From: Cornus controversa
Taxonomy: Eukaryota > Streptophyta > Magnoliopsida > Cornales > Cornaceae
NCBI GenBank assembly: GCA_026545225.1
Contig: CM048845.1
Coordinates: 120,221,033 to 120,285,032, forward strand
DNA length: 64,000 nt
Direction of reading: 5' to 3'
Below, piece by piece: positions 6,936 through 56,450 of this stretch. The position numbers were made by a program, and so were the translations under genes. Numbering within the stretch: position 1 is the first letter of the stretch; each line of letters opens with the position of its first letter. The notes beneath the pieces were generated by a model, which saw only the letters and a list, made by a program, of their open reading frames with translations, was not told the DNA's origin and did no database searches.

Positions 6936-7009
6936 AAAATAATTTTCCTAATTTTCAAGTTTTTCCAAAAATTTTAAAAATTCAAAACAAATAATAAAAT
7001 AATTCGGAA

Positions 7010-35801: not shown

Positions 35802-35918
35802 ATAAAAATATATATATATACACCAAAGATTCGGTTTGCGCAAGGTACACTAATATAATATTGTGTGAGAATAGGAACAAATGGAATTCTACAATTTTAT
35901 ATATATTTTTTTCAAAGT

Positions 35919-36260
35919 GAATGTTGAAAGCGTCACAGGGTAAATCGGTCAGAAAAGATCTATTATGAGGGCACATATGCCATGTAGTAAGCAAATCTAT
36001 TATGAGGGCACATATGCCATGTAGTAAGCAAATAAGGGTTTTGACTTTTGATTTTTGAAATAGGTTTCAACATGACACGTATGCTTTAATCCAACGGCTA
36101 TACAAATGAATGTTGAAAGCGTCACAGGGGTAAATCCGTCAGAAAAGATATATTAGGAGGGCACACATGCCATTGAACAAGAAAATTAGGGTTTTGAAAT
36201 TTTGACATATAGATTCCAATCTGACACGTGTGCTTTAATCCAACGGCTGTGAACTTACCC
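35919..36260 (+). repeat. Tandem duplication of the copy A upstream region (period 189)
   Basis: The block starting GAATGTTGAAAGCGTCACAG occurs at 35919 and again at 36108. Both include the ACACGT/CACGTG box and TGCTTTAATCCAACGGCT. Only the second is followed by the TATA box. Inside the first, a 37-bp segment (35958-35994) is itself repeated at 35995-36031. Copies B and C have a single block. Confidence 0.8.
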
Positions 36261-36345
36261 TAAATTGATAAGTCTCTTTTCCAGCGTCCGCCCCAACACA
36301 GACACCATTCTATATAAGTCACGCTAGGGCAGTCAGATCTGGTGT
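36108..36345 (+). promoter_or_regulatory. Promoter of microRNA-like copy A
   Basis: TATATAA at 36311-36317, followed after about 25-35 nt by a conserved GGGCAGTCAGATCT block that probably covers the transcription start. Upstream, shared with copies B and C, are the block beginning AATGTTGAAAGCGTCACAGG, a CACGTG G-box within TGACACGTGTGCTTTAATCC, then CAACGGCTGTG and ACCCTAAATTGATA. These shared blocks suggest the regulatory region was duplicated with the hairpin and stayed under constraint. Confidence 0.6.
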
Positions 36346-36419
36346 CACTTTGATAGCTTTAGCTTATTCAAGCAATTGTGTGTGACTGTGTATGTACTTT
36401 CTCTCTCTCACTCTCTGTA

Positions 36420-36514
36420 TGCCAAAGCTTAGATACGCACCTGAATCGGCCAATAGAAGAGTGTAGATCTGCTCTCTTTCTGTGCCGGTTCAGGTTCGTG
36501 TCCAAGCCATGGCA
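36420..36514 (+). ncRNA. MicroRNA-like precursor hairpin, copy A
   Basis: Inverted repeat with a 5' arm at 36420-36450 and a 3' arm at 36484-36514, separated by a loop of about 33 nt that can itself pair partly (AGAAGAG with CTCTTTCT). From G36427 to C36450 the arms pair with only two mismatches (A/C and C/U) plus G-U wobbles; below that a short internal loop is followed by UGCCA/UGGCA pairing. The 5' arm core is CTTAGATACGCACCTGAATC. It lies about 109 nt downstream of a TATA box, like a Pol II MIRNA gene. The same 31-nt 5' arm occurs unchanged in copies B and C. I do not recognise the mature sequence as one of the deeply conserved plant families, so no name is given. Alternative: a structured long non-coding RNA. 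Confidence 0.72.
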
Positions 36515-37080
36515 CACTAAAGGGTTTATTCCACCATGAAATAAGGTAAAAGTTTTTTTTTTTATTTATTTAGGAGTTTCATTTTGGTACATCAAATGTT
36601 TAAGTGTGTTTGTGTGTGTGTGTGTATATATATATATGTATGTATATATAGAATTTTCATTAACAGAAGAGATGAGAGTTACAATTATTAAGTTATGTGT
36701 TTTTGTATTTTTATAATTAGTTTTTCAAACTGTTAAAAAATGTGTAATTATGCCTGTGAGAGAGTGAGTGATTGTTCAAGTATAACATATATTTTAGTAA
36801 TTATTTTGTTATTATTATTTTTTGCTTTTTCATCATTCAGTATAATTATATTATTTTGGAAATTATCATTCAATATAATTATTGACTATTTTTTTATATT
36901 TAGATTTTTAATAAAAATACTCGAGAATCTTTTTTTTTTATAATTGAACTTTAAACTTCTGCATAAAGGTTCAGATTTAATCGGGACACCGGCCATTGTA
37001 GATGATTTTCCTCTTCCTTAACGAAGGCAACAATCTGATGGAATTTTAACTTCTTGTTTTCTTGTTAAGTACATGTATTT

Positions 37081-38216
37081 TAACTTTTAAGATTTAACCT
37101 AGAAATAATACAAATCTAAAAAAAAAAGAAACCGAATAAGGCAAAAAAAAATGGTTATGATATTTACACTATAAAAAGTATTACATTAGATTTTATATAT
37201 ACAAAAATTTAATTTTATGTAATATAGATTGTTATTAATATTTTTTATAAAATATTCTAATTAACATACATTTGTATAATAGATATTATGTACTTAGAGC
37301 AAATAAGTCTTCAAATTTTAAAAAGATAGTCCAAAATCATTTTTAGTTAACTCTTGAAATAGAATTCCTAAACAATTTTTGTATGTAATAATTAAAAATA
37401 AAAAAAAATTCAAAGAATTGTCAAAAATTCAAATTAGTAAAATTAACAGTGCTAATAATATTTTATATTATACAAAAATATTAATTGAGTTAGCATTATT
37501 TTTAAATTTGATATTTTTTTTAAAATTATTTTATTAAATTTAAAATAATAATAATAAGTGTATTTATAAAAAAATTAAAATAAAAAGTATTTATTAGCAA
37601 AGTTTCAGATTATATAAGTTTGCCCACATTAAATTATTTTAAATTTAATAAAGTAAATAAATTTTTTATTTTAATTTTTTTATAAATACATTTATTATTA
37701 TTTTAAATTTATTAAAGTAAATTTTTATTTTATATAAGAAAGATCAAATTTTAAAATAATGGCTCAACTAATATTACTTGTATAATGTAAAATATGATTA
37801 CTAGTTTAAGTAGTTTAAGAATTGTGTTTCAAAATTGGCTGAAAAAGATCTTAGAAAGGCATCTCGCTCACTTTTTAAAAACTTTGGTTATATGTTGTGG
37901 TTGTTGTGTTGGCTATTTGGCCATGGTTAAAAAATGAATAAAATATTAAACAAATTGGATCGGAATAAGACATCTTACCAATCAAGATTGAATTCAATTT
38001 TAATCAATCTGTTGGGATCGAATTAGATCCGAAGGCAAGTTCGCAACGTCTCTATAAACATATTAATTAAAAATTTCAAACCTAAAACAAATTAAAATAA
38101 ATTTTATATATATAAAAAAATAATATAAAGTATTTAACAATCATAATAACAAAATATTGTCAAATTTTAAAATGATTATAAGAAATAAAATAAAAATAAA
38201 AATCATACCTAATAAA
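37081..38216. other. Intergenic AT-rich sequence
   Basis: Very AT-rich. An inverted pair lies at about 37500-37570 and 37630-37735 (TTTAAATTTAATAAA with ATAATAATAAGTG in opposite orientations), a possible small foldback. No gene recognised. Confidence 0.4.
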
Positions 38217-38254
38217 AAATATTTAGGGTAAATACCACTTACATCCCCTCAGTT

Positions 38255-38878
38255 TAGGGCTGCAATTTGTATTGGGCAACCCGAATTCAACCCGAGCCCA
38301 ACCCAATTTTTTACGAACTTGGACAACTATTTTTACAAATAGGATTGAGCTAGGGTTGAAAAACTCCAACCCGAACTTAATTAGGGTTGGGTTAGGGTTG
38401 AGGTGCCAACAACCCGAGCCCAACCCGAACCCAAATTATAATATCATTTTTATACATATTTTTTATTTTAAATATATTATATATAATATTCAAATTATGA
38501 TAACATTTTTCTTTTCAACTTCCTTTATTTAAAACTGTATTTATTGTTATGTTAACATTTTGGATAATTAATTTTCTAAAAATTTGTTTGTAATTTTTTA
38601 GAAATTTGCATCAAATTATTAATTTTTTGTGTGTTTAGGAGTAATCTAATGTGAAACTTATTAAAGATCACTTTAAATTTTTAACATGAAAATTGGTGAT
38701 ATAGATAACCTGAATTAACCCAACTTTCTAACCCTAAATCTCAACCCGAGTTTAAAAATTTAAGGATGGGTTGGGCTAGGATTGAGTAGTTAGGGTTGAA
38801 AGTAGGGTTAGGGTTGAACATTTCATATGTAGGGTTGAACCCGAATTGTACCTCTAACCCGCCCGAGTTGCAGCCCTA
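38255..38878. mobile_element. hAT element nested in the Mutator-like TIR, 8-bp TSD
   Basis: Perfect 11-bp TIR TAGGGCTGCAA / TTGCAGCCCTA and perfect 8-bp TSD CCTCAGTT (38247-38254, 38879-38886). Subterminal repeats of the type CAACCCGAGCCCAACCC and GGGTTAGGGTTG. Non-coding. It splits the left TIR of the 38226-39797 element, so it is the younger insertion. Relatives at 45760-46406 and about 19720-20100. Confidence 0.92.
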
Positions 38879-39049
38879 CCTCAGTTTAGGCAATATCTCG
38901 ACTAAACCTTAGCTAACGGTTTTAGATGAATTTACAATTTTATCCATCATTAATACATTTAATTTAATCAATAAAAGCTATTTATGTAAAAAGACATAAT
39001 TGCCCTTCCTTATATTGAATCAATCTTCTCTCTCTCACTAGTCACAGTC

Positions 39050-39430
39050 TCAGTTTCTCTCTCTAACTCTCCCTCATCTTTCTCTCTCTAACTTCCGTCT
39101 CCCACTTTCTCTCTCTAACTCTCCCTCGTCTCTGTTTCACTGCACAGCGGCCATGGTGTCCTACCCACATCACACCCTCCTCCTTCTCCGACAACCCCAC
39201 CACACCCGCCAATGCCGCCATCACCTCCTCCGACTCCCCCACCCTCGTCACCCACATCACACTTTCCTCCTTCTCTGACGACCCCACCACACCTATTGAC
39301 ACTGCCACCATCTGCTCCGACTCCCCACCCTCGTCGTATCTCTCCGTCGCCTCGTCTCCTCCGACTGAGCCCCCAACATCAATTAGTTCTCTGGTTGTCG
39401 CAAAACCCCCCTCCACCCCTCCATGCGCGA
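39050..39430. other. GC-rich, gene-like insert inside the Mutator-like element
   Basis: A CT-rich run (39025-39130) leads into a C-rich segment with two tandem 86-bp units (39164 and 39250, each beginning ACCCACATCACAC). Overlapping ORFs are open on both strands (Pro-rich plus 39212-39436; Gly/Glu/Val-rich minus 39063-39416). The composition suggests captured exon or 5' UTR sequence. No domain recognised, and no evidence that it is translated. Confidence 0.45.
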
Positions 39431-40041
39431 GTATAGAAATATGTATATATATATATAGATATATATATCATCTTGGTAATTGATCTATGTGTATAGAAAT
39501 ATATATATATATAATATAAAATAATTTGTATAATATATAGTAAGGGTATTTTTATAATTGTGTATTGATTAATGAGGTTAAAGATGTCATTTATAAATGA
39601 GAAGGGCAAAAAGGACCATTCATATATTTTTCTAGTACTAACATCAACAAATTTCGTTTGTTGCTGACGTCACATTAACGAAAGGGGCAAATCAATACGT
39701 GAATCTAAAATTGAGGGGGTATAGTCAGCATTATTAAAACTAGAGGGGGTCTAGTTGGGATATTGCCTAAACTAAGGGGTGTAAGTAGTATTTACCCAAA
39801 TATTTATTATTAATCAAGATGCGGGGTTTGATGGATTTCATACTATTTTTCTAAATCCGCCTCTAACCCTAGCAGAATGATCTCAAATCCTTCTAATAGG
39901 AGGGGGATGAGGAAATTGATATTCCTTCTAAACCGATTCGAGTTGTGGTCATCCCTATTAAACGATTCACAAATTGTCGAGTCGTGGTCATCCCTTTAAA
40001 CAATTCACGAATTGTTGATTATAGAATCCTTTTCTTTTTTA

Positions 40042-40642
40042 GGAGGGTGTATTCAATTAGGATTTTAAAATATCTTTAAAAACTGGGTGTATTTAATCCA
40101 AACTTTTATAGACTTTTAAAAAGTCATACAAATCTGACGGTATTTAATCCAGACTTTTTTAAAGAGTCCATACAAATTTGGCGGTATTCAATTAGAATTT
40201 TAAAAAGTCTACAAAAGTCTAGGTGTACTCAAAAAGTCATAGATTTTGAATGATTACATTAAGTGGTAGATTTTGATGAATTTGAGGGTGGAAGTTATAA
40301 ATACCGAAACTCATAACAAATCCAACCTTTCTCCCACAAATTTGGTTGATTTTTTTTTTCTGCATAATACCAACACTATTTATCCATCTTAAGGTACACT
40401 TCTTTTTTCTCTCTGCTTTATCAAATTCTCTCTTTTTCTATTCACTTAGGACTTTAAAAAAGTCATAATACAAACAAAATCAAATGAATTGCACAAATAA
40501 AACAATCAATATATCAAAGATCATCAATGTCAAAACTCAGTTTAATGCATAGTCCAATTTGTACCACAACACCGAAACCAAGAATTGAATTTCAAATGGT
40601 GCAATGGATCTTTGAACTATAAACAAAGATATCAATTCTTAA

Positions 40643-40689
<47 letters not shown>

Positions 40690-42066
40690 CACACACTTAC
40701 ACACAAAATAGGGTTTGTGAGGGTGGTATTACCTTGTTGTTGAAAATAATGGTCCGTTGAGGGCATGTACTTTAGGTTCACACTGTCTTTACTATGAAAA
40801 CAGTTTATTCAAAAATTGTACGGATTTACTCTCATATAGATACTCATTTAACATGCTACAATATTTATACATGCTTGTATATATTTATACTCATATGTAT
40901 ACTCATTTAACAAGCAATACATACAAGAAAATAAATGTCTATATACCTTTTAAATAACAAAATAAAAAAATTATAAAGAATTTCATATGAAAAATATTTT
41001 ATGGGGAAACAAAAGTAGATATTTAGAATATGTTTGGTTTAATTTTTTTAAAACAGTTTTATATTTCAGATAAATGAAAACCCAGAAAGTTGTACAAAAA
41101 AAAATTTGTTTTATTGTAAATTTAATGAAAATTGTTTTATAAAAAATCAATTACAAAAAAAAATTATTTGTAGATAGCTATCCTTTATAATTTTTTTAAA
41201 AATAATTTGTTCAAACACAAGAGCAACAACGAAATAATGCTAATGAATGAAGAGTTTATACCTTTGAATATGTACAGAGATGTCGGGCACAATAATAACA
41301 ATGAGAACTAACGATATTGAGTAATGAATGTTAAATATTTTCATTTAAATTTTGCTTTTAAAATTGTTATAAACTTGTTACTATACTTTTGTGAATTCCA
41401 GTTGTTTTACGTTTGTTATAACTTTTGTTTTTCGTGAAAATTATGATGCATGCCACAGTAGTATAATCATTTTTTTTCTACTTTATAAAAAAAAAAACAA
41501 CATATCTATATATCTTATATATCTAACACAGTGAGAGCAAAATTTAAAAAATATGAAAATATTCCATTTACCATGAGCATAACTTTTTTATCATTAACTT
41601 AACATATAATATGAATAAAATAAGAAAAGAAGGAACATGGTTCATCTCAATCCAAATCATACGTTCAACTTTCATTTGACATATATTGCTTAATCATTCT
41701 TCGCACTGTTATGAGGAGGGATATATGTAATTGTGTATAGGTTCTTAATAATTATATTGAATAATTTCAAATAACAGAAACCATGAATGATAGTTTATCT
41801 ATTTTACATTATACCTGTATCTTGAACCATTGGTTTATTTGTACGCAAAAATATAAATCAAGGATACAAATAAATAAAATATATTGAAAAAATCATTACA
41901 AGTATATAAGAATCTATCAAAATTTTTAATAGAAGTCTATACAAATCTCTAAAAGTTTCTAATAAAAGTTTATAGAAATCCATGAATTCTACTTAAATCT
42001 ATAGAAATTCATGAAAACTTGTCACTTAAAAAATGTCTTTCAAATTCCTAATTTAATGCACCCTCC
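40042..42066. mobile_element. PIF/Harbinger-like element, TTA TSD, 2.0 kb
   Basis: Ends GGAGGGTGTATTCAATTAGG and the inverted CCTAATTTAATGCACCCTCC, flanked by TTA (40039-40041, 42067-42069). Subterminal blocks such as TACAAAAGTCTA and AAAAGTCATAGATTTTGAA recur near both ends and in the 43419 element. A (AT)n(AC)n tract lies at 40648-40696. No transposase ORF. Confidence 0.82.
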
Positions 42067-42595
42067 TTAGTTTCACTCAATTCATCTACTTCTCTCCATC
42101 TAAATAATAGAATTGGATTTATTTTTAAACTTCTTTTATTATTCTTTTTATAAATAAAATGCTCTTGAAAACCTTTCTTTTAAAAAAAAAAAAAAGTCTT
42201 AGAACTATAAAAAACTTCATTTTCAATTGTTCAAATTTTTTTTCAAGTTCCTTAAAAATTGGTTCAAAAAAGGAAAGCCATTTTCGAGGATAACCAAAAG
42301 GAAGGTCGGTTTCCATTTCTCAACATTTAAAAAACAAAAATCCTCTTTTTGTTATTTTCCTGAGAGGAATGTAACTTAGATTTGTGTCAAGGTTTAGACA
42401 GAAAGGAAATAATTTGCCTATACATTTGCAATTTTTGAAATTTGCTTTGAAATTCCATATCCAACTCGATGTCATCAATTAATAACTTTAGAGAAGTTCA
42501 AAATTATAACAAACTCAATTTGTGAACTTTATTTCTCTGTTCTTTTTTTTTTATTATTTTTTTTTATGTGAAGAGAAAATGACACTTATGAATTA
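42067..42595. other. Intergenic AT-rich sequence
   Basis: Homopolymer-rich (A-run at 42181-42195, T-runs at 42543-42565). The minus ORF at 42125-42316 is Phe/Lys-rich and unconvincing. Nothing else recognised. Confidence 0.4.
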
Positions 42596-43280
42596 ACATG
42601 TAAACGAATCAGATTTATATCCAAATCCGACAAGAGTTATGTTCAATAATCCCATTTGCAAAGTGTGTGTGTGTGTGTATATATATATATACACACATTA
42701 AAAAATTGACATGAAAATAAAATAGCGAACAATGATTAAGGGAAAAATAGAGAAATCATAGAAGAAAAATACAATATAAACAAAAGATAGTAAAAAAGAT
42801 GGTATTTTACTTTTTATTAAAGAAAAAAATAATAAGAGAGAGAAAATATAGAGAGGGAAGAAAAAGGAGAAGAAAATAATGATAAAAATATTTTAATAAT
42901 ATGTAAATATTTTATATTACATAATTAGATCATATATTTATAGTACTTTATTGGTATTTTACTTTTTATTAAAGAAAAAAATAATAAAGAGAGAGAAAAT
43001 ATAGAGAGGGAATAAGAAGAAGAAAATAATGATACAAACATTTTAATAATATGTAAATATTGTATATTACATCATTAAATCATATATTTATAGTACATTA
43101 TATATTGTATTATATCGAATCAAATTATTATCAAACCAGATTAACCATAATTCATATATGAGTTATTTAGCTAACGAATTATCAGATTCGATCGAATCGC
43201 TAATAAATTATCAGATTGATTGTTCTAATCCATTTTCTAATTATCGGTTTGAATTTTGATCGAATTCGGATCAAAATATT
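42596..43280. mobile_element. Degraded DNA element with internal tandem duplication
   Basis: Related to 22934-23455 (same order of shared blocks). Here a segment of about 155-160 bp starting TATTTTACTTTTTATTAAAG is tandemly duplicated (about 42802-42955 and 42956-43110). A (GT)n(AT)n(AC)n tract lies at 42664-42698. Ends not resolved. Confidence 0.5.
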
Positions 43281-43418
43281 TTTATAATTTTACTTTACAA
43301 AAATAGGAAGAGTGGAGAGTTGTGATCCAAGAAAAAAAATATAGCATAAAGTGGAATCAATTTATTCCAAAGGTACGATGGCATTGACTATTTGTTTATG
43401 AGTCTCATTCTAATATTA

Positions 43419-44278
43419 GGAGGGTCTATTCAATTAGAATTTTAAAATTATAGTTGTATTCAATCCAGACTTTTATAAACTTTTAAAGAGTTCATACAAA
43501 TCTGATTGTATTCAATTAGGATTTTAAAAAAGTTTACAAAAGTCAATGTGTATTAATAAAATCATAGATTTTGAAGGATTTCATTAAGTGGTGGATTTTG
43601 GTGAATTTGAAGGTGAAAAGTATAATTACTGAAACTCATAATAAATCCAACCTTTCCCCAATAGATTTTGGTGGAATTTTTTTATTTTTTTGCTTAATAC
43701 TAATAGTCTTTCTCCATCTCAAGATACACTTCTTTTTTCTCTCATTATGGAAGGGATTAATCCCTCTATACTATTTGTTAGGGATCAATTTCTTAAGGAT
43801 TGATACTGAAATTCAGTTAATATTTTAATATAACCTAAGTTCAAGGTTCTCCAATTATCTATCTAATGATTTAATATAGACCTTATAAGTAAAATCTGTA
43901 CTTTTTTTTTTTTTTTCATAATGTACGATTGAAATATGAGCTTCATCAATTGAGTTACTTTATTATCATCGCTTTTTCATGGGATATTTGTAGTACACAA
44001 TAATTTTTAGACAATATAGTAAGTGATAGATTATTGGTTTTGTATTATAACTACTTCTCGAGCTATTGGTTTACTTGTTTGCAAAAATATAATTCAAGGA
44101 TATAAATAAATAAAACATGTTGAAGAAATCAATACAAGTCTGTAAAAATTCATCAAAGTCTCTAATAGAAGTTTATACAAATCAACGAAATCATGTAATA
44201 AAAGTTTATAAAAATCTATGAATTCACGTAAATCTATCATTTAAAAAATGTATTTCAAAATCCTAATCAATTACATCC
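43419..44278. mobile_element. PIF/Harbinger-like element, TTA TSD, 0.86 kb
   Basis: Same family as 40042-42066: left GGAGGGTCTATTCAATTAGA, right inverted CCTAATCAATTACATCC, flanked by TTA (43416-43418, 44279-44281). About 1.2 kb shorter than its relative, so either it is internally deleted or the other has gained sequence. An ORF at 43571-43828 has no transposase motif. Confidence 0.82.
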
Positions 44279-44489
44279 TTAGAATTTTGACAATATTTAT
44301 GATTGAGTAATACAGATCACTCTCAAAATAAATATATTAGAACACAAAAAAAAAATCACCTAGACGATACTAAAATTACCTCAAATAAAATATTTATGTG
44401 ATGATAAAAATATTTATATTTTTCTTGTGTTCAAAAAATATTTATTAGCTGATTGATTTAACCCTATACATTTGTTCCAAAATGAATAA

Positions 44490-44690
44490 ATGAATGTTGA
44501 AAGAGTCCACACGAGCAAATCGGTCAGAAAAAATCTACTCCAAAGGCACACATGTCAATGAAATATAATATTAGAATTTTGATTCTGACACGTATGCTTT
44601 AATCCAACGGCTGTGACATTACCCTAAATTGATACTCTCTTTTTGGGTGGCCATTCTATATAAGTCAGACGTGGGCAGTCAGATCTCGTA
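44490..44690 (+). promoter_or_regulatory. Promoter of microRNA-like copy B
   Basis: TATATAA at 44657-44663 and GGGCAGTCAGATCT just downstream. The upstream blocks match A and C, but the G-box is altered (CACGTA instead of CACGTG) while TGCTTTAATCCAACGGCTG is kept. The leader between TATA and hairpin is about 28 nt shorter than in A and C. Confidence 0.6.
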
Positions 44691-44737
44691 TCACTTGCAA
44701 TAGCATGTATACTCTTTCTCTCTCTCTCTCTATGCGC

Positions 44738-44841
44738 GCCAAAGCTTAGATACGCACCTGAATCGGCCCATAGAAGAGAGTAGATCCCTCATCTCTCTCT
44801 GTGTCTCTCCTGCCGATTCAGGTTCGTGTCCAAGCCTGGCA
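44738..44841 (+). ncRNA. MicroRNA-like precursor hairpin, copy B
   Basis: 5' arm 44738-44767, 3' arm 44812-44841, with a pyrimidine-rich loop of about 44 nt that is longer than in copy A. The 5' arm is identical to copies A and C over 31 nt from GCCAAAGC to TCGGCC. In the 3' arm a G in A and C is A here, turning a U-G wobble into U-A, so pairing is improved rather than lost. The base of the stem differs (CCTGGCA instead of CCATGGCA), removing part of the internal loop. The TATA box lies 81 nt upstream of the hairpin. Confidence 0.72.
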
Positions 44842-45759
44842 CACTAAAAATATTCATTTTTCTTTGTTTATTTAGGAGTTCCTTTCCGTGTTCTTGTGCT
44901 TCCATCAATTGTTTAAGTGTGTTTGTGTACATGTATATCTATATATTATAGAAATTTCTGAGATTGGATTTACAGTTATCAGGATATATATTTTTATTTA
45001 TTTTTATTTTTATCAAAAAGTTTTTCAAACTATTAGAAATTTAAAACATGTAATTATGGTCTACTTATATTGTTTAAGTATAACATATATTTTAGTAATT
45101 AGTATTATTTTTTTATTATTTCATTCTTTTTCATCATCCAATATAATTACTTTTTATCGGAAATTATCATTCTCTATAATTATAGAGTATTTGTTTATAT
45201 TTAGATTTTTTTAGTAGAAATTTTTTACAACTGAACTTTTAAACTTATGCATAAAGGAAATTAAAATAATTGTAAATGATTTTCCTCTTCCTTAATAAAG
45301 CAAATTAGGGTATACAATCCGATGCTATTTTAACTTGTAAGGGGATAAACTCAAAATTACCACCAATTCTTTTTTTTTTTTTTTTTTCAAATTCAAATGA
45401 GTCTTCTTAAGTTTACTTTTAGATTTAATTATTAAACTTTCAATTTATTCCCTTGCCAAATAGAAAATAAAATTCTTGCAAATTCCCACACCAAATGGAA
45501 ATAAAATTTTGCAATAATTTTGTTCAAAATATCAGCATTGCAATTTTATTTTTTATGACGACTTTGATAAAAAAAACTAAATTTTGTTAAAAAGTCAATA
45601 AAATCTTATCATTTTCTTTTAATAAATTTGTATCTATTTAGTATAAATGAATGTTCAAAATTTTAACTCCTTAATCTTTAACAAAAGTTAATAGTACTGA
45701 TTTGTGGTTCATGATAAAGTGATACAAGAATGTTTACCTTTTCATATACAAATTAATAG

Positions 45760-46406
45760 CAGGCTCTAGTTCGAGCGAGTTAGGCTGAATCATATATGTC
45801 AAATATTCAACTTTAACTTAACTTTCAATTTTAATTACTCAATTATAGTTCAACCCATATTTAAATTTTTAAATATGGATTTGTAATTCAGGTTAAGATT
45901 TTAGATTAAAAAATCAGATTAATTTGGATTATCTATATCACTAATTTTTTTGTTGAAAATGTAAAGTGATTTTTGATAAGTTTCACATTAGATTATTCAT
46001 AAATAAATAAATAAAAATTTGATGCAAATTTCTACAAAATTACAAACAAATTTTTAGAAAACTAATTATTCAAAGTATCAATATATAATAAATTAAGATT
46101 TAAATAAAGAAAGTTGAAAAGAAAAAGGTTATCATAATTTGAATATTATATATCATATATTTAAAATAAAATATTATATGTTATTATAGGTTTGGGTTGG
46201 GCTCGGGTTATTAGCATCTCAATCCAAGTCTAACTATAATTAAGTTTGGGTTGAAATTTTTCAACACCAGCTCAATTCTAATTGTAAAAATAATTGTTTA
46301 AAGCTGTAAAAAATTAAAATGAGCTCGGATTGAATTCAAGTTGTCCATCTCAAGTTGTACTCGTCTTGGGTTGAATTCAAGTTGTCCAGTCCAAGTTATA
46401 CCCCTA
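45760..46406. mobile_element. hAT element, 8-bp TSD, related to 38255-38878
   Basis: Bounded by the perfect 8-bp repeat ATTAATAG (45752-45759, 46407-46414). The left end CAGGCTCTAGTTCGAG and right end ATACCCCTA are decayed TIRs. The interior has GGGTTGGGCTCGGGTTATTA and ATAATTGTTTAAAGC, as in the 38255 family. The flanks on both sides contain copies of AAAGTGATACAA(G/C)AATGTT, so it sits in a locally duplicated stretch. Confidence 0.75.
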
Positions 46407-46407
46407 A

Positions 46408-46460
46408 TTAATAGTACTGATAATAGTATAAATTAATAGTACTGATAATAGTATAAATTT
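46408..46460. repeat. Tandem duplication, 25 bp
   Basis: TTAATAGTACTGATAATAGT followed by ATAAA occurs twice in a row just right of the hAT element. Confidence 0.9.
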
Positions 46461-46932
46461 TGTTAGTGACAAAGTGATACAACAATGTTACTTTTTCATA
46501 TACTTTTTTTCCCTTAGATTATTGCTCTCAACTCAATACAACTTTGAATTACAGCGCTTATTTGATCCGTAGCCATGAATTATTTCATTTCAATCTCAAC
46601 ATTGACCTAATTTTTTTAAAAAAATTTGTTTATAAAAGTTAAATAATTTAAACTAATAATAATAGGCTCCTATAAGATTGAATTTGTTTCAAATTTTATG
46701 AATGTGTTAGGATTGGATTCCAAATTTTAAGAATGTGATAGGATTGGATTGATTTTAGTTAGAATGTGATAGGATTGGATTGATTTTAGTTTTATGAGAG
46801 TGTTTCCTATCATTAACTATTTCTAACAATAATAAAAATTTAAAAATATATTGTAATATATTTTTAATTTTACTCACATACGTTGCTATGTATTGATATT
46901 ATAAAAAAATTGTTAATGGTGCACATCATAGG

Positions 46933-47971
46933 CAGGGGCGGAGCCGCCGGGGGGGGGGGGGGGGGGGGGGCGGGGGGGGCATGGTCCCCCCAAAATTTTT
47001 AAAATTTTTTTTTATACCCCCAAAAAAAATAATTAATTTTAAATACTACCTTAAAATTTATTAAAAATTTCAATTTGGCTCCCCTAAATCTTTTAAAAAA
47101 ACTCATATATTGAGCTCAAATAGGAAATTTGAAAATAAATTTAGCTTGTGTCTCCTTGAAAACTATATAAAAAAAATTAAACTTAGACCTTGTAGCCATA
47201 CTTTTGAATGCCCAAATATTGTGAAATAAAAATTTAAGTTCATTAATATTGTAATCCTTATCACAACAAATCGTTATTTTATTTACATATACATATATAC
47301 AATATCTATTATATTAATTCAAAAGAGAAATACATTAATGTCCCTGCATAAACCTTTCTTATCAAATATTTTTATAAATTGATGTTTACAAGAAAAACAT
47401 CTAGAATGGAGGAAAAACAAGTGTTGTGAAATTATAAACAACAATTATCATATTTACTAAAACTTTTAATGGTCATTTACTAACAAATAACAAATTCTAT
47501 GACTAATTTATGTATAAGCCACTAAAAAATAATCTTGTTTTGTTAAAACTTGTGAGATTTTGTTTAGTTAAAATTATTTTTTTTTTTAATCAAATATATC
47601 TTTTCGAAGTGGAATCAAATTACTCAAAATCTTTTTCTAAAAATTGGATTTTTGAAAAACTGAAACAATTAATTGTTGAAAAAAAATTGGTTCTCTAATA
47701 TTTTTTTCTTTACCTTTTCACTTTTTTGTTGTAATTTATCGTTTCATCTTTTCAATTTTTTTCATTCTCACATCAATTTTCTATCTAATTATTTAAGTTG
47801 CATTTTTCTCAATTTTTCAATTTTTTTTTTCCTAAACAAATTTCTCAACATATATACACTATAACTAAAATTTTAAAAAATTATATTACAATTGGTTGCT
47901 AATATTTTTAAATTTTAATTGCATAATGTAAATTTGGCCCCCTCAAAGAAAATTTCCTGGCTCCGCCCCTG
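46933..47971. mobile_element. hAT element, 13-bp TIR, 8-bp TSD, with long G-run
   Basis: Perfect TIR CAGGGGCGGAGCC / GGCTCCGCCCCTG and perfect TSD ATCATAGG (46925-46932, 47972-47979). The right end continues as CCCTCAAAGAAAATTTCCTG. The left end has instead a run of 22 G, one C, then 8 G (46949-46979). Non-coding interior; the ORF pair at 47510-47864 is Phe/Leu-rich noise. Confidence 0.92.
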
Positions 47972-48089
47972 ATCATAGGGTCAATAATTTTCACAATACC
48001 ACGTACCTTAAATATTCGTAATTTTTATTTATTTCAACCGTTTAATTTTATGGAGTTACAAATTAGTCAATATTTATATGTTTCACAAC

Positions 48090-48250
48090 AATAGACATCG
48101 TTTTTAGCGGTGGTTAAAACCACGCTAAAAGTTTCCAAAATACTGTTATAACTGTTGCCACAATATAACAGCGGTTATGACAGCCGCGATTGGTCTTAAA
48201 ACTTTTTTCCTTTTGCGGCGCTTAGGTAACCGCCGCTAAAACCCTCAACT
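48090..48250. repeat. Short GCGGTTA/CGCTAAAA repeats
   Basis: TTTTTAGCGGTGGTTAAAAC, CCACGCTAAAAG, AACAGCGGTTATGACAGCCG and AACCGCCGCTAAAACC form direct and inverted copies, as in the subterminal parts of plant CACTA or related DNA elements. No CACTA ends or TSD located. Confidence 0.4.
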
Positions 48251-48678
48251 TTAAGAAATGAAAATTTTAATAATAAAAGACAAAAACCTAAAACCTGTTA
48301 CCCTCATATCACATCCATTCCAAAACTAATGTCATCTGTAAAAAAAAATAAGATTCAACAGCATTGTTACAATAACCCAATCATTTTTAATGATTGAGTT
48401 AACAAATAAAATACAAATTACAAGCAACTAGCCATTTTCAATCAAGACTTTGTTGCCCCTTTTATTGGTCAAAACAAGCAATCCTACAAAATCCCAAAAT
48501 GCAAAGGTCATATTTGCTGCATATAATTTAAGAATTAAATTAAAAAAATATTAAATTCTAATAATGATATTAACATATATATGAATTTATAAAGCATACA
48601 TCGAGTGTTTATAAAGTTGCAGATGAAAATCATTAATCAAATGCATTGCATGATTATTCTCATATATAGAAAAATTTA

Positions 48679-49088
48679 GAGCAAATTATACTCACCTCCT
48701 CTTTAAATAGGCTAAATAACATTGATCTCTCCTGTACAATTTTTTGACAATTATACCAATGTACAAATTTTTTTAATTAATTTTTTTTTTGTAAGTAAAA
48801 TTAGAATAAATTACTTTCTGAAAAAAAATAGAATAAATTAAAAAAGCAAAGTTACATGATTATAAGGGGTATATCCCATGTGAAAATCTCAAAAAAAAAA
48901 ATATATTATTATGTAAAAATTCTAAGGGTATTTTTAGTATTTTTAGGTGATTTTTGTATATGAAAAACTAATAGGGAGGTCAATGTTACAAAAACTTGCG
49001 GACATAAGAGGTTAGTGTTATATTTGCAAATACTAGAGAAGTTTTTATTATTTAACTTATTTATAGAAGAGGTGATTGTAAGTTATCC
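48679..49088. mobile_element. Mutator-like MITE, 410 bp
   Basis: Long imperfect TIRs: left GAGCAAATTATACTCACCTC, right inverted GGATAACTTACAATCACCTC, continuing as TAAATAGGCTAAATAACATT versus TAAATAAGTTAAATAATAAA. Flanking 9-mers AAAAATTTA and AAAATTTTA agree at 8 of 9. Non-coding. Confidence 0.7.
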
Positions 49089-49097
49089 AAAATTTTA

Positions 49098-50180
49098 TTA
49101 TTTATTTGCTTTCTTTCTATAAAAATTGTTAATGATAAACAATCCAAAACATTCTATCACTGATGATTTCTACAAAAATAAAGTAGGCTAAGTAACAACT
49201 ATTTTTGTAGACTTTATTTATATCATAAAGAGGGTGTGCTAATGAACCTTAAAGAATGAGGTCGCTGATGAACTAATCAGCCACGGTAGTAGTGGATTTA
49301 TCATATGACTGCCCTTGTTGTTATTTATATTCTTGTCTTGTCCAAAAATCATTTCACTATCAACGAAATCAAGAATTAATTACAATTGGAAATTCACATC
49401 AAACTGCCAAGGCAATATGTAATAAAAGTAAATATTTCAACCTTTGTTTGGTTGCTCAGAAACAAGAAAAATAAGAAATAAAATAAAACACAACTTGAAA
49501 TTATCTGCGGGAATTTATTTACCATAAGAGTCAGCCATCAGAATCAGATTCCAAAACCATCTCAACAGAATATATAAACAGAATCAGAAAGCCAGAAGTG
49601 GTTCGGTTCAAATCTTTATGATTATCAGACTCAAAAAAGGAGGAGAGCTTGTTATATAAATATGCATCTGAATCCCTATTCATGAATTCCTTAGTTCAAA
49701 AAATAAGAACAAGAGAATAATCATTTTTTGTGATCCTTTTGCAAATTTGGTAAATTTTGATTAATTATATATATTATTATAATTTATGATTCCGTGTATT
49801 TTTTTCACCCTATTGATCCTTATGATATTTTATACTTATGATGGTTTTATGGAAATTATTGATGCAAAAAAATTATACTTGTGATGGTCTTATGGAAATT
49901 ATTGATGCATTAAAAGAGTAAATCACAATAATTGTTTATAGGGTGAAGGACACACAGCATCAGAGGACACAATGTCACGGAAAACAAACCTAATGTAGAG
50001 AAAAAAAAAAAAAAAAACTGGACTTGAAATTTCGTCGCAATTAAAACACCCAATAAAAACTTCATCAGGTGTAGATAAAAATAAATAAAATAAAATAAAA
50101 AAAAAGAAGAAGAAGAAAATTTGAGAAAATAAACCTTAAAACAAAAGAATTACGAATTTCAAACAAGATTCACATTATCC
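49098..50180. other. Intergenic sequence
   Basis: AT-rich, no recognised gene. It contains a short internal duplication (TATACTTATGATGGTTTTAT at about 49830 and a near copy at about 49874) and A-runs at 49998-50018. Confidence 0.4.
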
Positions 50181-50375
50181 ATTTTTTTTTTTTGGGGTAA
50201 ATGAATATATTCAAGAGGGGAAGAAACAAAACAATACACCTGCAGAGAGCCCAACAAGCCCAAAAGGCAAGAACAACAACTGACAAGACCAAAAGAGTTG
50301 AGAGAAAACAGCCCAACAGAACCTAAATCCGTGGGACAAGGATCGGAGGCAGGGACAGGGGAAGAAACTAATGAA
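50181..50375 (-). mobile_element. 5'-truncated LINE 3' end
   Basis: Read on the minus strand, GGGCTTGTTGGGCTCTCTGC leads to a CTTCCCCTCTTGAATATATT and ATTTACCCC stretch followed by an A-run (T-run at 50181-50193). This resembles 3' ends of plant L1-type LINEs. The minus ORF (50159-50512) has a Cys/Leu-rich tail without reverse transcriptase motifs. TSD not found. Confidence 0.45.
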
Positions 50376-50532
50376 CATAAAAAAATAAAAATAAAAATAA
50401 AAATAAAAACAAAGCTTGGAAGTTTTACGATTACCGACCTTATAAGGAGTACCTCTACAATACATTCGGTGTAAATACACAAAATGAATCTGATATCGTG
50501 TGTGTACAACAATCAGGTACAAATACACCGGA

Positions 50533-50886
50533 TGGTATGTATGTGTAGGTGTATGCTATAAACTTTTTCACATAAAGAAAAGTAGTTGTAGTGTAAATAA
50601 GAAGAGGAGGGAACGTTGTTATACATACATATATACGTACGTATAATATATATATATATATATATAACTGATTTATGTATGTGTTCTATCTCTATTGGAA
50701 TTTCTGTCTTGTTTCCTAGCTTATCAGTGTTAAATTAGAACTTGGATTTTCTTTTTTGAGTTTCTTGCACTGCACAACTTTATATTCATACAAATGAACC
50801 GTTGGATCATGTGAGTTTCAATGTGAGGTCCACATGATTGAACTGCTAAGTGTCCACTGTACTTAATGTTGGTAAACAAAAAAAAG
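50533..50886. repeat. Segmental duplication, first part (partner 60917-61250)
   Basis: CTATAAACTTTTTCACATAA, AGAAAAGTAGTTGTAGTGTA, TGTTCTATCTCTATTGGAAT and GTTTCCTAGCTTATCAGTGT are shared with 60917-61250. On the minus strand this region is the upstream flank of the 60607-60903 ORF in the partner copy, but here the ORF is absent. Confidence 0.85.
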
Positions 50887-50888
50887 TA

Positions 50889-52196
50889 GGTCCTTCTAAT
50901 TTAGGCCAAATTGCACTACACCCTCCTATACTTTCAAAAATACTAAAATACCTCTCTGTGTTATTTTTGTCACCAAACAACCCCCTCGTACTTTCAAAAG
51001 TTGCAAAAGACTCCCCTTTTGCAAAAAAAATCTCCTTTTGGATGATCATTTTACCCTTTTCATGATTATAAAAAATAAAAATAAAAAGAAAATAGAGAGA
51101 AGAGGGTCTTTTTTTATTAATTTTTTTTACTTTAATTAAAAAACAGGAGCTTTTTCTAGAAAATAAAAAAATTATGGAAAAAAATACTAGATAAGCACAA
51201 TTATATAATAAAAAATTTCAGAATATTTTTTTTCCATAAATTATTTCCAAAAAAAATTCCATTACAAAGAGAGGGAATTCTCATAAAATAAAAAAAAAAT
51301 CTGGCAATTTTTATTAAGTAATTGTTCTTATATATATATATATTTTGAAAATTGTTTCCGAAATTGTTTTGTTTTCTGGAAAAACTCCTTTTTTTATTTA
51401 GGTAAAAACAATAAGATAAAACACCATCTTCTCTCAATTTTCCTTTTAATTTAATAATCATGGAAAGGGTAATATGGTCATACAAAAAGAGATTTTTTGC
51501 AAAATGGGGGTTTTTGCAATTTTTGAAAGCACAGGGGGGTTATTTAGTGACAAAAATAGCACAAAGAGATATTTTGCCATTTTTTGAAAGCATAGGAGGT
51601 TTAGTGCAATTTGACCTATAATTTATTGGTGCTCAAATAAATCACCTTTAAAAATTAAAAGGTCAATGTATTGTTAATTTTTTAATCAAATTTTACTTTT
51701 GTACATTAATTGCAAAAAAAGAAAATGCATATTACCTCTTCTTCAAGGAGATAACATGTTAATTTTTTTATAGTTTAAGGGGATTTGCAAAGTTAACTAA
51801 TATGATATTATTTTGTAGAAACCATGTAATTGTGGCCATAAGGCCTTGAACTAATATATGTTAAGATTACGAATACACTTTTGAGGAATCTACCTTAGTA
51901 TATGAATAGTTGATGAATTTATGTATGAATGACCAATGAGATGGTTTAATTGACAAGTTCAAGTTCCGTTCATTTTAATACATCTTTCCTCAAGTGTTGG
52001 TATTGATTTATGTTGATTGGGGTAGAGAAGTGGTCATGCATGGACTTGGAGTGAAAATGCAAGTTCAATCGAGGAGCATTATAATGAATCATAATATGGG
52101 TTACGCGAAATCATAATACTAAGATGAATCGTAACCTGGATTGTACGGAATCATAAAATTGAAAAAAATTGACATAAAAAACTAGTGTGATTATGC
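50889..52196. repeat. Recent duplication, copy 1 (partner 62673-64000)
   Basis: Contains the MITE and about 570 bp to its right, nearly identical to the block at the window end. Right-hand landmarks: AACATGTTAATTTTTTTATA, CATAAGGCCTTGAACTAATA and CATGCATGGACTTGGAGTGA. Confidence 0.9.
50904..51616. mobile_element. Mutator-like MITE, about 160-bp TIRs, copy 1
   Basis: Left TIR from GGCCAAATTGCACTACACCC, right TIR inverted from GGTCAAATTGCACTAAACCT. The arms align over roughly 160 bp (50904-51065 versus 51455-51616). Flanking 9-mers TCTAATTTA and TATAATTTA agree at 8 of 9. Interior AT-rich, non-coding. The two small overlapping ORFs in the left arm are shadows. Confidence 0.85.
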
Positions 52197-52664
52197 AGAT
52201 TGTGCGTGGACTCGTAATTACACAGAATTGTAACTGAGATTGCGTCGAATCATAATCCTCATAACGATTCAGCACAATATGTGAGGGCAAGTACCTCTTT
52301 AGTTGAGATTGCATTAGGGAGTTACTTGTAGAACCTATCCATAGGGATTGTTTGAGACATGTTCACTTGTTAATACATGTGTAGACACTTCCGCGAGGTT
52401 GTGAAACCAAAGCCTTAGGTTAATGACTGAGATTTGAGATTAGAATCCAAGTGTTCCATATAGGAACGTAGGGTGGGCTAGTAAGGCTTTTGCAAGAGTT
52501 ATCTCGGTGGTTCAGATCAGAATTGAGGGTGAAAGGATAGTGATTGTCACGGTTGTTCGGGGGCACGGGATAATGATTGGGTAAGTGTAACATCCCATGA
52601 CGCGGAGTTTAGGCTCAGACCAGGGGGGCGGGGTTCCGGTGTCTCAAATTTTGGAGTGTGATAG
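52197..52664 (+). mobile_element. 5' LTR end of a decayed Ty3/gypsy element
   Basis: Sequence immediately left of the primer-binding site. It includes GTGTAACATCCCATGACGCG and ends ..GGAGTGTGATA, where an intact LTR would end in CA. The LTR start is not identified; it probably lies to the left, inside the duplicated block. Confidence 0.5.
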
Positions 52665-52666
52665 TT

Positions 52667-52680
52667 TGGTATTAGAGCAT
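52667..52680 (+). other. Retrotransposon primer-binding site
   Basis: TGGTATTAGAGCAT matches the 3' end complement of initiator-Met tRNA (TGGTATCAGAGC) with one change. It sits just after the LTR end and about 380 bp before the gag remnant. Confidence 0.75.
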
Positions 52681-52829
52681 AACTAGGTTTGAATATCTAG
52701 GGACAAAAGGTAAGGATCGGATCATGTGTGATTCAGAATGGTTAGAGTCTCTAGGTTTGAAAACCTAAAAACGTGGTTAGACTTAACATAGTTGAATTGG
52801 GATCTAAAATGTGCATGTTATATGTTTGT

Positions 52830-52990
52830 TTGATAACACGTTTATGTGATATGTGTCTATATGATGAAAACACGTTTATGTGATATGTGTTTATATGATT
52901 ATAACACGTTTATGTGATATGTGTTTATATGATAACATAATTGTATGGTAATACGTCTATGTGATAACATACTTCTATATTTTATAGTAT
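52830..52990. repeat. Tandem repeats, period about 46 bp
   Basis: Three to four units of AACACGTTTATGTGATATGT followed by GT(C/T)TATATGAT, between the primer-binding site and the gag remnant. Confidence 0.8.
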
Positions 52991-53059
52991 GTTGGTTATG
53001 TTGAGTGCGTAACATGAGTATTCGATTGTTATTAACCTATCTCTTTGTTATATAGCACT

Positions 53060-53405
53060 ATGCCTCTTAGGCGAGCTATAGTAGTGGTTGAGGATGATAT
53101 TCCTGAAGGAAACCGTTTGGTCTTGGATATGACTACGACTCTTAAGGACTTTGTAAGGACGATTGTTGTTGAGATACAATAACTGGTGGGACAATCGGAC
53201 GAAACTAAATCGGAGAGGTGATTCAAGTACATTACAAGGTTCAAGAAGTTGTTGCCTTCTAGTTTGAGAGTAGTTCAGATCCATTGGTGGCGAATAATTG
53301 GCTCGAATAAGTTAAGAAACATCTGAGGGTGACGTTTATGCCTGACGATGGAATGGAGGTGATACTAGCCACTTATCTATTCTCAGGGGGTGCCGAGATT
53401 AATTA
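53060..53405 (+). pseudogene. Ty3/gypsy gag remnant
   Basis: ATG at 53060 opens a short frame MPLRRAIVVVEDDIP typical of the N-terminus of plant gypsy Gag, closed by TAA near 53182. After a frame change, pieces resembling the retrotransposon Gag core are readable (FKKLLPSS, then DPLVANNWLE, then a Met/Asp segment and ATYLFSGGAE), with another stop and a frame shift between them. Similarity stops abruptly at about 53402, where AT-rich DNA begins. No protease, reverse transcriptase or integrase follows. It is a dead fragment. Confidence 0.65.
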
Positions 53406-53800
53406 TTATTAATTCCCTAAATTGACTATAGAACTAAATTATTCTATTATTATATTACATATACACACTATGATTACTATGATTTTTTTTTAATCAATTT
53501 TTTGATGGTCTAGAAGCTCTGTTCTTCACTTTATCAATTACTTACTCCTACAAATTCTATTTTCTATTTCCTTATATTATAAAAATTTATCCAAAAATAT
53601 AAATATAATCACCAAACAACTTTTAGGATCTTATCACCATTATAATATATATGACGTCAAATAAAATTAAAATTCTTAGATTGTGAAATTTGTTTATGGT
53701 TTGATTGCTTGAATTGTCATGAGAATCATAATAATTTATATATTTTAGTGAGAATGGTTTACATAACATTTTAAATTTGAAACAGGGTAAAAAATGCATC
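53406..53800. other. AT-rich sequence after the gag breakpoint
   Basis: No ORF or element ends recognised. Confidence 0.4.
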
Positions 53801-54075
53801 CAATTTATGTATGTTGTTAAATTTTGATTTAATGATGATGATGAAATACTAATAAACAAGAAGTTGTTATGTTTGCATAAAAGTTTAAATTTTAATAAAT
53901 AAATAAACTAAATTTAGAGGAATACAACCTTTTTCATTTAATTTATGTATGTTGTTAAATTTTGATTTAATGATGATGATGAAATAATAAACAATAAGTT
54001 GTTATGTTTGCATAAAAGTTTAACTTTCAATAAATAAATAAACTAAATTTAGAGAAATACAACTTTTTCATTTAA
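53801..54075. repeat. Tandem duplication, period about 137 bp
   Basis: ATTTATGTATGTTGTTAAAT, TTTAATGATGATGATGAAAT, AGTTGTTATGTTTGCATAAA and AATAAATAAATAAACTAAAT occur twice in order, with few differences. Confidence 0.9.
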
Positions 54076-54599
54076 TGTTGTTAAAATTTGATTACTGGAC
54101 CACTGACATCAAATTGCACTCTACATGCATTTTTTATATGTTATTATTTAAAGGGATAAAAAATTATGTTAAACAAACTCCTTTAACTAATCAATTATCT
54201 CAAACATATACTAGGACCAAGCTTAAATGTAATATAGATATATATTTGAGTTAAATTGAATAACATCTTGTTTTAAAATTTAAAATTGGTATAAAAATTT
54301 TACATATATGTAATAGTAGAAAGTTAAAATTTAACAAATTTTTTATTTTCAAAATATAAAAATCTTAGATCAATTTTAAAACCATATGCAAATTAAAATT
54401 TCTCTACTGTTTGTAATTTGTTTTTTTCTTTAGATTAATAGAAACTCTTTAAGTTCTATTTACTTTTTTTTTTGTTTTCGTTTTTATTTTTGTTAATTTT
54501 AAGCAGTATATATTCCTATAATAAATATTAAAATCACATGCATCGCACATGATTTTTATACTATCTTTTCACTGTGAAACCTAAATTTTCTAGCCAATA

Positions 54600-54900
54600 T
54601 AAACTTTATTTATTATATAAAAGTCTTTTATTGATAAAATTTATTTATTATATAAAACTCTTTTATTATAATCAATCATAATTCTAAATTTTAAAAATTA
54701 TAACCAATAATAATTCCGCATGATTCGCCACAAAATAATACTCACCTAAAAATATCATAAAAAAATTATAAAAAAACTCTTTTATTGATAAAATTTATTT
54801 ATTATATAAAAACTCTTTTATTGTAATCAATCATAATTTTAAAATTATAACTAATAATAATTTCACACGATTCACCACAAAATAATATCATACCAGACCT
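54600..54900. repeat. Repeats containing ACTCTTTTATTGATAAAATT
   Basis: Two main copies (about 54620-54740 and 54775-54890) sharing AATTTATTTATTATATAAAA, TCAATCATAATT and GATTC(G/A)CCACAAAATAAT, spaced about 160 bp. Confidence 0.75.
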
Positions 54901-55014
54901 GAAAAATAGTATTAAATAAATTTTGTTAATGATATATTTTTTATTTAATATTCTTTTAAATAATATTTGTAATATATATAATTAGAGTATCCCACATGCA
55001 ACAATGCATTTAAA

Positions 55015-55015
<1 letters not shown>

Positions 55016-55047
<32 letters not shown>
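55016..55047. repeat. (TA)n microsatellite
   Basis: About 15 TA units. Similar tracts occur at 22078-22095, 23082-23107, 30658-30695 and 50646-50667. Confidence 0.9.
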
Positions 55048-55050
<3 letters not shown>

Positions 55051-55284
55051 GAGTGGTTTTGTGTGAAATTACCATGTCTGCCCCTATTCTATTTAGAAGG
55101 TTACAAAATTCGTTCCATTAGAAGCGGGGCACAGCAGAAACCCGCCGAAGCGGATGATATTGCCATCGAAAAGGAGTCAATTTCTACCAAATGTACGCTG
55201 AGATTCACTATTATAATACTGTGATAGAATAGGTAAAAACGGAATTCTACAATTTTACGTATATATTTCATAATAAATTAAAAG

Positions 55285-55520
55285 TAAATGTTGAAAGCGT
55301 CACAGGGGCAAATCGGTCAGGACAGACATATTCTGCAGGCACACATGCCATTGACTAAGCAATTAGGGTTTTGATATTTGACCAAGGCTCGAACATGACA
55401 CGTGTTCTTTAATCGAACGGCTGTGACATTACCCTAAATTGATAATCTCTTTTGTTGTGGCCGCCACAACACTGACAGACCATTCTATATAAGTCACGTT
55501 AGGGCAGTCAGATCTGGTGT
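55285..55520 (+). promoter_or_regulatory. Promoter of microRNA-like copy C
   Basis: TATATAA at 55486-55492, GGGCAGTCAGATCTGGTGTC downstream, and the upstream blocks AATGTTGAAAGCGTCACAGG, TGACACGTGTTCTTTAATCG and ACCCTAAATTGATAATCTC. The intact CACGTG G-box is present. Copy C matches copy A through TGATAGCTTTAGCTTATTCA in the leader. Confidence 0.6.
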
Positions 55521-55593
55521 CACTTTGATAGCTTTAGCTTATTCATGCTTTACTATATAACTTCTTATGTACTACTCTCTCTCTTCCTCTGTG

Positions 55594-55698
55594 TGCCAAA
55601 GCTTAGATACGCACCTGAATCGGCCAATAGAAGGAAATAGATCACTTCTCTCTCTCTCTATCTGTCTGCCGGTTCAGGTTTGTATCCAAGCCATGACA
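55594..55698 (+). ncRNA. MicroRNA-like precursor hairpin, copy C
   Basis: 5' arm 55594-55624, 3' arm 55668-55698, with a loop of about 43 nt rich in CT. The 5' arm is the same invariant 31 nt. The 3' arm differs from copy A at two core positions: C to T (G-C becomes G-U) and G to A (U-G becomes U-A), both keeping the pair. Near the base TGGCA has become TGACA, opening one pair. The TATA box starts 108 nt upstream, as in copy A. Confidence 0.72.
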
Positions 55699-56450
55699 CA
55701 CGAAAGGCCACATCTCACAAATTTTTCATTTTCCTTTGTTTATTTAGGAGTTTCATTTTCATGTTCTTGTTCTTCCATCAAATGTTTAAATGTGTTTGTG
55801 TACATGTATCTAAAAATTTCAAAGATTGGATTACAATTATCAAGATATATATTTTTTTTTATCAAAACTTTTTCAAATTATTAAAAATTTAAAATACGTA
55901 GTTATGGCCTTTGTGTGTGTGATTGTTTAAGTAAAATATATATTTCAGTAATTCTTTTATTATTATTATTATTTCATTCTTTTTCATCATTCAATATAAT
56001 TACTTTTTATCGGAAATTATCATTCTCTATAATTATAGAGTATTTGTTTATATTTATATTTTCTTTAATACAGTATTTTTTAAAACTGAACTTCAAACTT
56101 ATGCATAAAGGAAATTAGGACCATTGTAGATTATTTTCCTCTTCCTTAGTAAAGAAAATTAGGGTATACAATCTGATGGAATTTTAACTTTTTTTACTAG
56201 GTAAGTAGATGGTATTTTATTTTAACTTAACTCAAAATTGCCACAAATTTTTTTTTTTTCAAATCAAATGCGTCCTCTTAATTTTCAACAAGATCAATAC
56301 GTTTAAGTTTACTTTTTGATTTTTTAACTGTTAAAAGTTCTACACGATTAAAATTTCAATTTATTCACTTACCAAAAGGAATAAAATTCTTGCTAATTCC
56401 CACCCCAAATGTAAATAAAATTTTCCAATAATTTTGTTCAAACCATCATC

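Follow-up and report, generated by a model that had tools for sequence, protein, structure and literature searches.

The stretch of Cornus controversa DNA analysed here (contig CM048845.1, positions 120,221,033 to 120,285,032; hereafter the window, 64,000 nucleotides [nt] of plant DNA with 29% G+C) carries on its + strand three hairpins, at 36419-36517 (copy 1), 44736-44844 (copy 2), and 55593-55701 (copy 3), which are directly observed to share one fixed 5' arm. To judge from their sequence, these hairpins are tandemly duplicated genes of the known microRNA (miRNA) family MIR6149 and not members of a new family. We consider it likely that the three tandem MIR6149 genes yield a miRNA from the 5' arm (5p miRNA) that acts on F-box mRNAs, and that the hairpin itself was derived from an inverted duplication of an F-box gene.

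The 20-nt core of the 5' arm, CTTAGATACGCACCTGAATC, has exact + strand matches at 36428, 44745, and 55602, with 0.00 matches expected by chance in a search of the window; a fourth match, with three mismatches, is the minus strand of the 3' arm of copy 2. When the three loci are aligned (1157 columns, of which 601 are invariant), no invariant run is longer than that of the arm itself, GCCAAAGCTTAGATACGCACCTGAATCGGCC, which is identical over 31 nt in all three hairpins; a run of 31 was reached in 0 of 20000 column permutations. The initial annotation, which had proposed three hairpins with a common 31-nt 5' arm at these places, each preceded by its own TATA box 81-109 nt upstream, was right on both counts, and on the TATA spacing to within a base.

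Duplicated surroundings and upstream sequences

BLAST comparison of the window with itself placed each hairpin in a duplicated block of approximately 1.0-1.2 kb on the + strand, located at 36101-37090 for copy 1 (73.7% identity over 1039 columns against 55279-56225), at 44480-45545 for copy 2 (73.2% over 1223 columns against 55275-56459), and at 55275-56459 for copy 3. Gapped BLAST alignments of the block copies showed 67.5-74% identity, while identity between the copies at ungapped positions of the three-locus alignment, with the hairpin excluded, amounts to 77%, 79%, and 83%. A duplicated block thus does form the surroundings, but the earlier description of this DNA as strongly diverged was somewhat overstated. 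Part of the upstream portion of the block occurs once more just to the left of copy 1 (35848-35994, 79% identical to 55206-55362).

The second-longest invariant run, 17 nt long (CCATTCTATATAAGTCA), contains the TATA box CTATATAAG, which is found on the + strand at 36310-36318, 44656-44664, and 55485-55493 for copies 1, 2, and 3, respectively. Further upstream, a conserved stretch at 36222-36270, 44586-44634, and 55396-55444 comprises TGACACGT and a 16-nt invariant run, TTACCCTAAATTGATA; these may possibly represent shared regulatory sites.

The block extends approximately 260-320 nt to the left of the hairpin and 575-760 nt to the right, and this interior position speaks against a transposon terminal repeat. 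A broader transposon-based explanation, under which the hairpins would be a transposon-derived inverted repeat that gives rise to heterogeneous 24-nt small interfering RNAs (siRNAs), could draw on the repetitive nature of the blocks and on the foldback elements and inverted copies nearby; however, we regard it as highly unlikely, as the interior hairpin lies behind a conserved TATA box, its arm has stayed fixed while the block diverged, and RNAs of the family are reported as discrete and abundant in tobacco (PMC3306195) and pepper (PMC3667847).

Folding and strand choice

Each hairpin folds far better than its shuffles (0 of 200 as good for each copy, in a folding check run per locus), with minimum free energies of -54.7, -53.3, and -49.8 kcal/mol and z-scores of -7.73, -8.80, and -7.08 for copies 1, 2, and 3, respectively. 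With the register of the mature 5p miRNA taken by inference from tobacco miR6149a, the putative mature 21-mers would lie on the + strand at 36429-36449, 44746-44766, and 55603-55623, opposite putative star sequences at 36487-36507, 44815-44835, and 55671-55691; the two 21-mers are separated by spacers of 37, 48, and 47 nt, respectively. In all three copies, positions 3 and 10 of this putative duplex (2 of 19) are unpaired, as symmetric 1x1 mismatches, in agreement with the two mismatches that had been noted initially. Because the stem is symmetric, a 21-nt product is expected, and the predicted 5p small RNA would be expected to start at UUAGAUACG within the 5' arms.

When 26 stem pairs were compared across the three copies, 77 of the 78 cells were found to be paired, the sole broken pair being near the base of the copy 3 stem. 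Three stem pairs vary (UG/UA, GC/GU, and UG/UA), each through a change on the 3' side alone that keeps the pairing. A functional 5p miRNA predicts just such a pattern, in which the 5' arm does not change and the 3' arm varies only as far as pairing permits, even though three related copies are few for an analysis of stem covariation and the shuffle control is uninformative at such depth. The broken pair in copy 3 could also be taken as a sign that the copies are relics that are no longer expressed, but the 31-nt arm, the stem, and the TATA box have been kept in all three copies while approximately one fifth of the other ungapped positions changed, which makes relic status improbable. The initial interpretation, under which each locus is a plant gene of the MIRNA type that has its own TATA box and should yield a mature RNA from its 5' arm, is consistent with these results and appears to have been right.

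Assignment to the MIR6149 family

A permissive scan of each locus returned Rfam MIR6149 (RF03905) as the best family at all three loci, with the whole model covered and with E-values of 2.4e-8, 9.7e-8, and 1.9e-8 for copies 1, 2, and 3, respectively; lower-scoring matches to the model were also found on the minus strand of each hairpin. The last 19 nt of tobacco miR6149a (UUGAUACGCACCUGAAUCGGC; PMC6566703) are contained in the 31-nt arm, identical in all three copies, and the mature stretch found here in all three copies, UUAGAUACGCACCUGAAUCGGC, is one base longer than the tobacco sequence. These matches overturn the initial suggestion of an unrecognised and perhaps lineage-specific family. 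The idea of a new MIRNA family that is lineage-specific and has no relation to known families could still appeal to bit scores (46.6, 43.2, and 45.8) that fall far under the curated gathering score of 100, to a default Rfam scan of the whole window at curated cut-offs that yielded zero matches, and to the absence of the exact window variant, under the spellings AGATACGCACCTGAAT and UUAGAUACGCACCUGAAUC, from the main texts searched. This explanation is, however, contradicted by the full-length MIR6149 match at three loci and by the 19 nt shared with tobacco miR6149a, and we give it very little credence. A weak Rfam match to MIR530, found in copy 1 alone (20.4 bits, E-value of 0.26), was rejected, and a search of the copy 1 region against a plasmid collection found zero matches.

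Compared with known members of the family (nta-miR6149a, vco-miR6149a, pepper can-miR-n005, and probably can-miR-n002), the C. controversa hairpins show the same full-length covariance match to RF03905, the same 19 nt as tobacco miR6149a with the same antisense F-box reading, and a mature RNA that is likewise assigned, here by prediction, to the 5' arm. They differ by an extra A near the 5' end, an extra base in the 3' arm, another loop, their arrangement as three tandem copies, and an Rfam score under the curated cut-off. The earliest record of the family that we found is that of Nta-miR9a/b (PMC3306195). Mature sequences have since been printed for blueberry (CUUCAUACGCACCUGAAUCGG; PMC5751366), tea (AUACGCACCUGAAUCGGUAG; PMC4929424), Nicotiana benthamiana (PMC4667520), and, under another name, pepper (PMC3667847), and the name miR6149 has also been applied in a second blueberry (PMC5979386), in Lonicera (PMC5053492), in Camellia oleifera (PMC8750442), and in potato (PMC9921761). 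The N. benthamiana paper, citing others, describes the group that holds miR6149 as predominant in Solanaceae (PMC4667520), and a comparison of six species found miR6149 in tea alone (PMC5697157). A listing of the tobacco sequence in pitaya, with few reads (PMC7510087), is not built on here.

F-box codons in the hairpins

Read antisense, the 5' arm gives the codons GGC CGA TTC AGG TGC GTA TCT AAG CTT TGG, that is, G-R-F-R-C-V-S-K-L-W, in which RFRCVSK represents the core of the F-box; these core codons lie on the minus strand at 36428-36448 (copy 1), 44745-44765 (copy 2), and 55602-55622 (copy 3). We scanned all 3593 stop-to-stop segments of at least 12 residues from a six-frame translation of the window with a profile built from the F-box starts of 99 F-box proteins, which had been collected with a motif-masked probe. 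The five top-scoring segments are hairpin arms; the antisense 5' arms of copies 3, 2, and 1 occupy ranks 1-3 (scores of 17.3, 16.9, and 15.3, respectively), and the sense strands of the 3' arms of copies 1 and 3 occupy ranks 4-5 (13.9 and 11.2). The 3' arm of copy 2 follows at rank seven with a score of 5.6, behind an unrelated segment that scores 9.8. Among 60 dinucleotide-shuffled windows the best scores ranged from 6.3 to 11.9, so that four hairpin arms, but not the fifth, exceed all of them. Given their complementarity to the 5' arms, the 3' arms add little independent weight.

It is because the 3' arm reads as F-box-like in sense and the 5' arm in antisense that we propose an inverted duplication. 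The competing explanation is that these are MIR6149 genes whose F-box resemblance is purely functional, with a hairpin of other origin in which only the target site of approximately 21 nt is F-box-like. Any miRNA that targets a motif must resemble that motif over 21 nt, and we thus kept the seven core codons fixed and tested the flanks separately by randomising six codons on each side. Of 4000 random flanks with the composition of the window, 0.68%, 0.75%, and 0.75% reached the observed scores of 19.2, 18.9, and 19.0, respectively (0.58-0.68% with uniform composition), corresponding to a whole-flank p of approximately 0.007, a result that argues against purely functional resemblance. Most of this signal is carried by the right flank, which includes an in-frame W (p of approximately 0.009). 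The pattern was present in 77 of the 99 real F-box proteins, 72 of which have W after the motif and 75 of which have S before it, as in the hairpins, which also tells against purely functional resemblance; the G and L of the hairpin reading are rare at the same positions (5 and 2 of the 77, respectively). Purely functional resemblance nevertheless has points in its favor, in that the left flank alone (S-I/M-G) gives a p of approximately 0.1, a single W codon accounts for the larger part of the flank signal, and at the stem base of copies 1 and 2 CCA is paired with TGG, such that both arms hold the same information. We judge it to be a serious competitor, though one with less than an even chance of being correct, and the F-box scan and the flank codons together as moderate support for birth of the hairpin by inverted duplication of an F-box gene.

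Published mature RNAs of the family give related antisense readings, namely RFRCVS for tobacco and pepper can-miR-n005, RFRCVC for pepper can-miR-n002, RFRCV for the tea sequence, which is too short to show any further residues, and RFRCV followed by a stop for blueberry. At the sixth motif position, real F-box proteins carry S in 47 of 76 cases and C in 28 of 76. That two pepper miRNAs appear to match the S and C versions of the motif is striking, albeit a pattern drawn from two sequences. A search with a hairpin-like peptide in the probe newly listed 89 proteins, among which RFRCVSKLW occurs in 6 and SIGRFRCVSK in 4 (e.g., P0233 of Oldenlandia).

Targets and proposed mechanism

Proteins of the CPR1/CPR30 type restrain immune receptors, and it is mRNAs of this kind that the RFRCVSK reading of the 5' arm, top of the F-box profile scan, would designate as candidate targets. 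The targets reported for the MIR6149 family lean to F-box genes. Predicted targets include an F-BOX gene for tobacco miR6149a (PMC6566703), CPR30 for C. oleifera miR6149 (PMC8750442), and a galactose oxidase for potato miR6149 (PMC3913621); also in potato, miR6149-5p weakened a green fluorescent protein (GFP) reporter that carried the target sequence of a CPR30 galactose-oxidase/F-box gene (PMC9921761). In pepper, F-box mRNAs were predicted as targets of can-miR-n005 and can-miR-n002, including one for each miRNA with a penalty of 0, and 5' rapid amplification of cDNA ends gave a positive result for four F-box mRNAs (PMC3667847). Both the small RNA and the cleavage of F-box mRNAs have been observed by others in relatives, and our reading extends them to C. 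controversa by analogy.

Together with the low Rfam scores described above, a number of results weigh against this reading. As the three copies are related, their F-box scores amount to one observation and not three. Pfam (24736 families) reported F-box for two of the six exact pieces with E-values of 0.098 and 0.14, below its cut-off; F-box was the sole family reported, and four of the six pieces had no match. The exact peptide GRFRCVSKLW occurs in 0 of the 99 F-box proteins of the masked-probe set and in 0 of the 89 newly listed proteins, and RFRFVSK, as read from the 3' arm, in 0 of the 99. Double-sided changes were found in 0 of the 26 stem pairs across the three copies. Finally, the N. 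benthamiana degradome table gives tubulin and HT1 kinase, and no F-box mRNA, for miR6149 in the accessible part of the paper (PMC4667520), and the blueberry degradome, likewise as far as its text was accessible, names no CPR1-type F-box target of miR6149.

For C. controversa we infer promoter use, processing, register, target, and origin as follows. Each copy is probably a short RNA polymerase II unit, with a TATA box, a 5' leader of approximately 50-80 nt, and then the hairpin. DCL1 would cut the hairpin to a 21-nt duplex, and the strand from the 5' arm, UUAGAUACGCACCUGAAUCGG, would be kept; in AGO1, this 5p miRNA would pair with mRNAs of CPR1/CPR30-kind F-box genes over the R-F-R-C-V-S-K codons, and cleavage of the paired mRNAs would lower many family members at once. 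An inverted duplication of a CPR1/CPR30-kind F-box gene is the most likely source of the hairpin.

Other features of the window

The only clear protein gene recognised in the window lies on the minus strand at 10925-13700, has several exons, and encodes a cytosolic glutamine synthetase, which over the whole query shows up to 93% identity to plant enzymes of unrelated orders (among the best 120 of 410 matches). A search for tRNA genes found 0 in the window. The segments 50874-52196 and 62659-64000 are 94% identical copies approximately 11.8 kb apart, the second of which is cut by the window end; they may represent a mobile repeat or else a recent long duplication, in which case a near-identical fourth hairpin would be predicted near 67.4 kb. 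Inside these copies, a foldback element of approximately 730 bp is found at 50898-51623 and 62683-63412, each 74-75% self-complementary. Copy 2 is flanked by an inverted pair at 38273-38828 and 45794-46347 (78% identical over 571 columns), which is probably a transposable element. Tandem repeats are present at 6417-6941 (162 bp, 3 copies) and at 18087-18636 (275 bp, 2 copies, 91%).

Implications for the MIR6149 family

Among known systems, miR482/miR2118 represents a case in which one miRNA is placed over the best-conserved coding motif of the very large NLR gene family; it is like MIR6149 in logic and differs in motif, target family, and sequence. Birth of miRNAs by inverted duplication of their target genes was reportedly described for Arabidopsis by Allen et al. 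in 2004. Such Arabidopsis miRNAs have the same layout, with a 3' arm that is target-like in sense and a 5' arm that is so in antisense, but they are young and retain long homology, whereas approximately 12 codons are still recognisable here. In wild strawberry, the miRNA genes of the miRFBX cluster likewise lie together and target F-box mRNAs, which belong to one of the largest plant gene families, and the miRNAs of the cluster hit one third of F-box genes; these miRNAs are 22 nt long, trigger phased secondary siRNAs (phasiRNAs), and are described from strawberry only, as compared to the 21 nt expected here, and the likeness considered is one of logic (review PMC5902766).

We tentatively suggest, with confidence that comes close to an even chance, that MIR6149 was born early in the asterids through inverted duplication of a CPR1-type F-box gene and was then held to the F-box core codons as a regulator of the whole family, with subfamilies that follow RFRCVSK (here, in tobacco, and in pepper can-miR-n005) and RFRCVCK (in pepper can-miR-n002), in parallel to miR482 on NLR genes and to miRFBX in strawberry. 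A search by title and by the start of the abstract, which left most subscription papers uncovered and is thus weak evidence of absence, found no printed account of an F-box origin for miR6149. As F-box-like codons persist on both sides of the mature site, the question of origin is decidable by comparison of asterid genomes. An apparently new miRNA family is thus placed in a known one, and that family gains a testable origin and logic; if this reading is true, a conserved miRNA over a common F-box motif would provide a simple handle on protein turnover and immunity.

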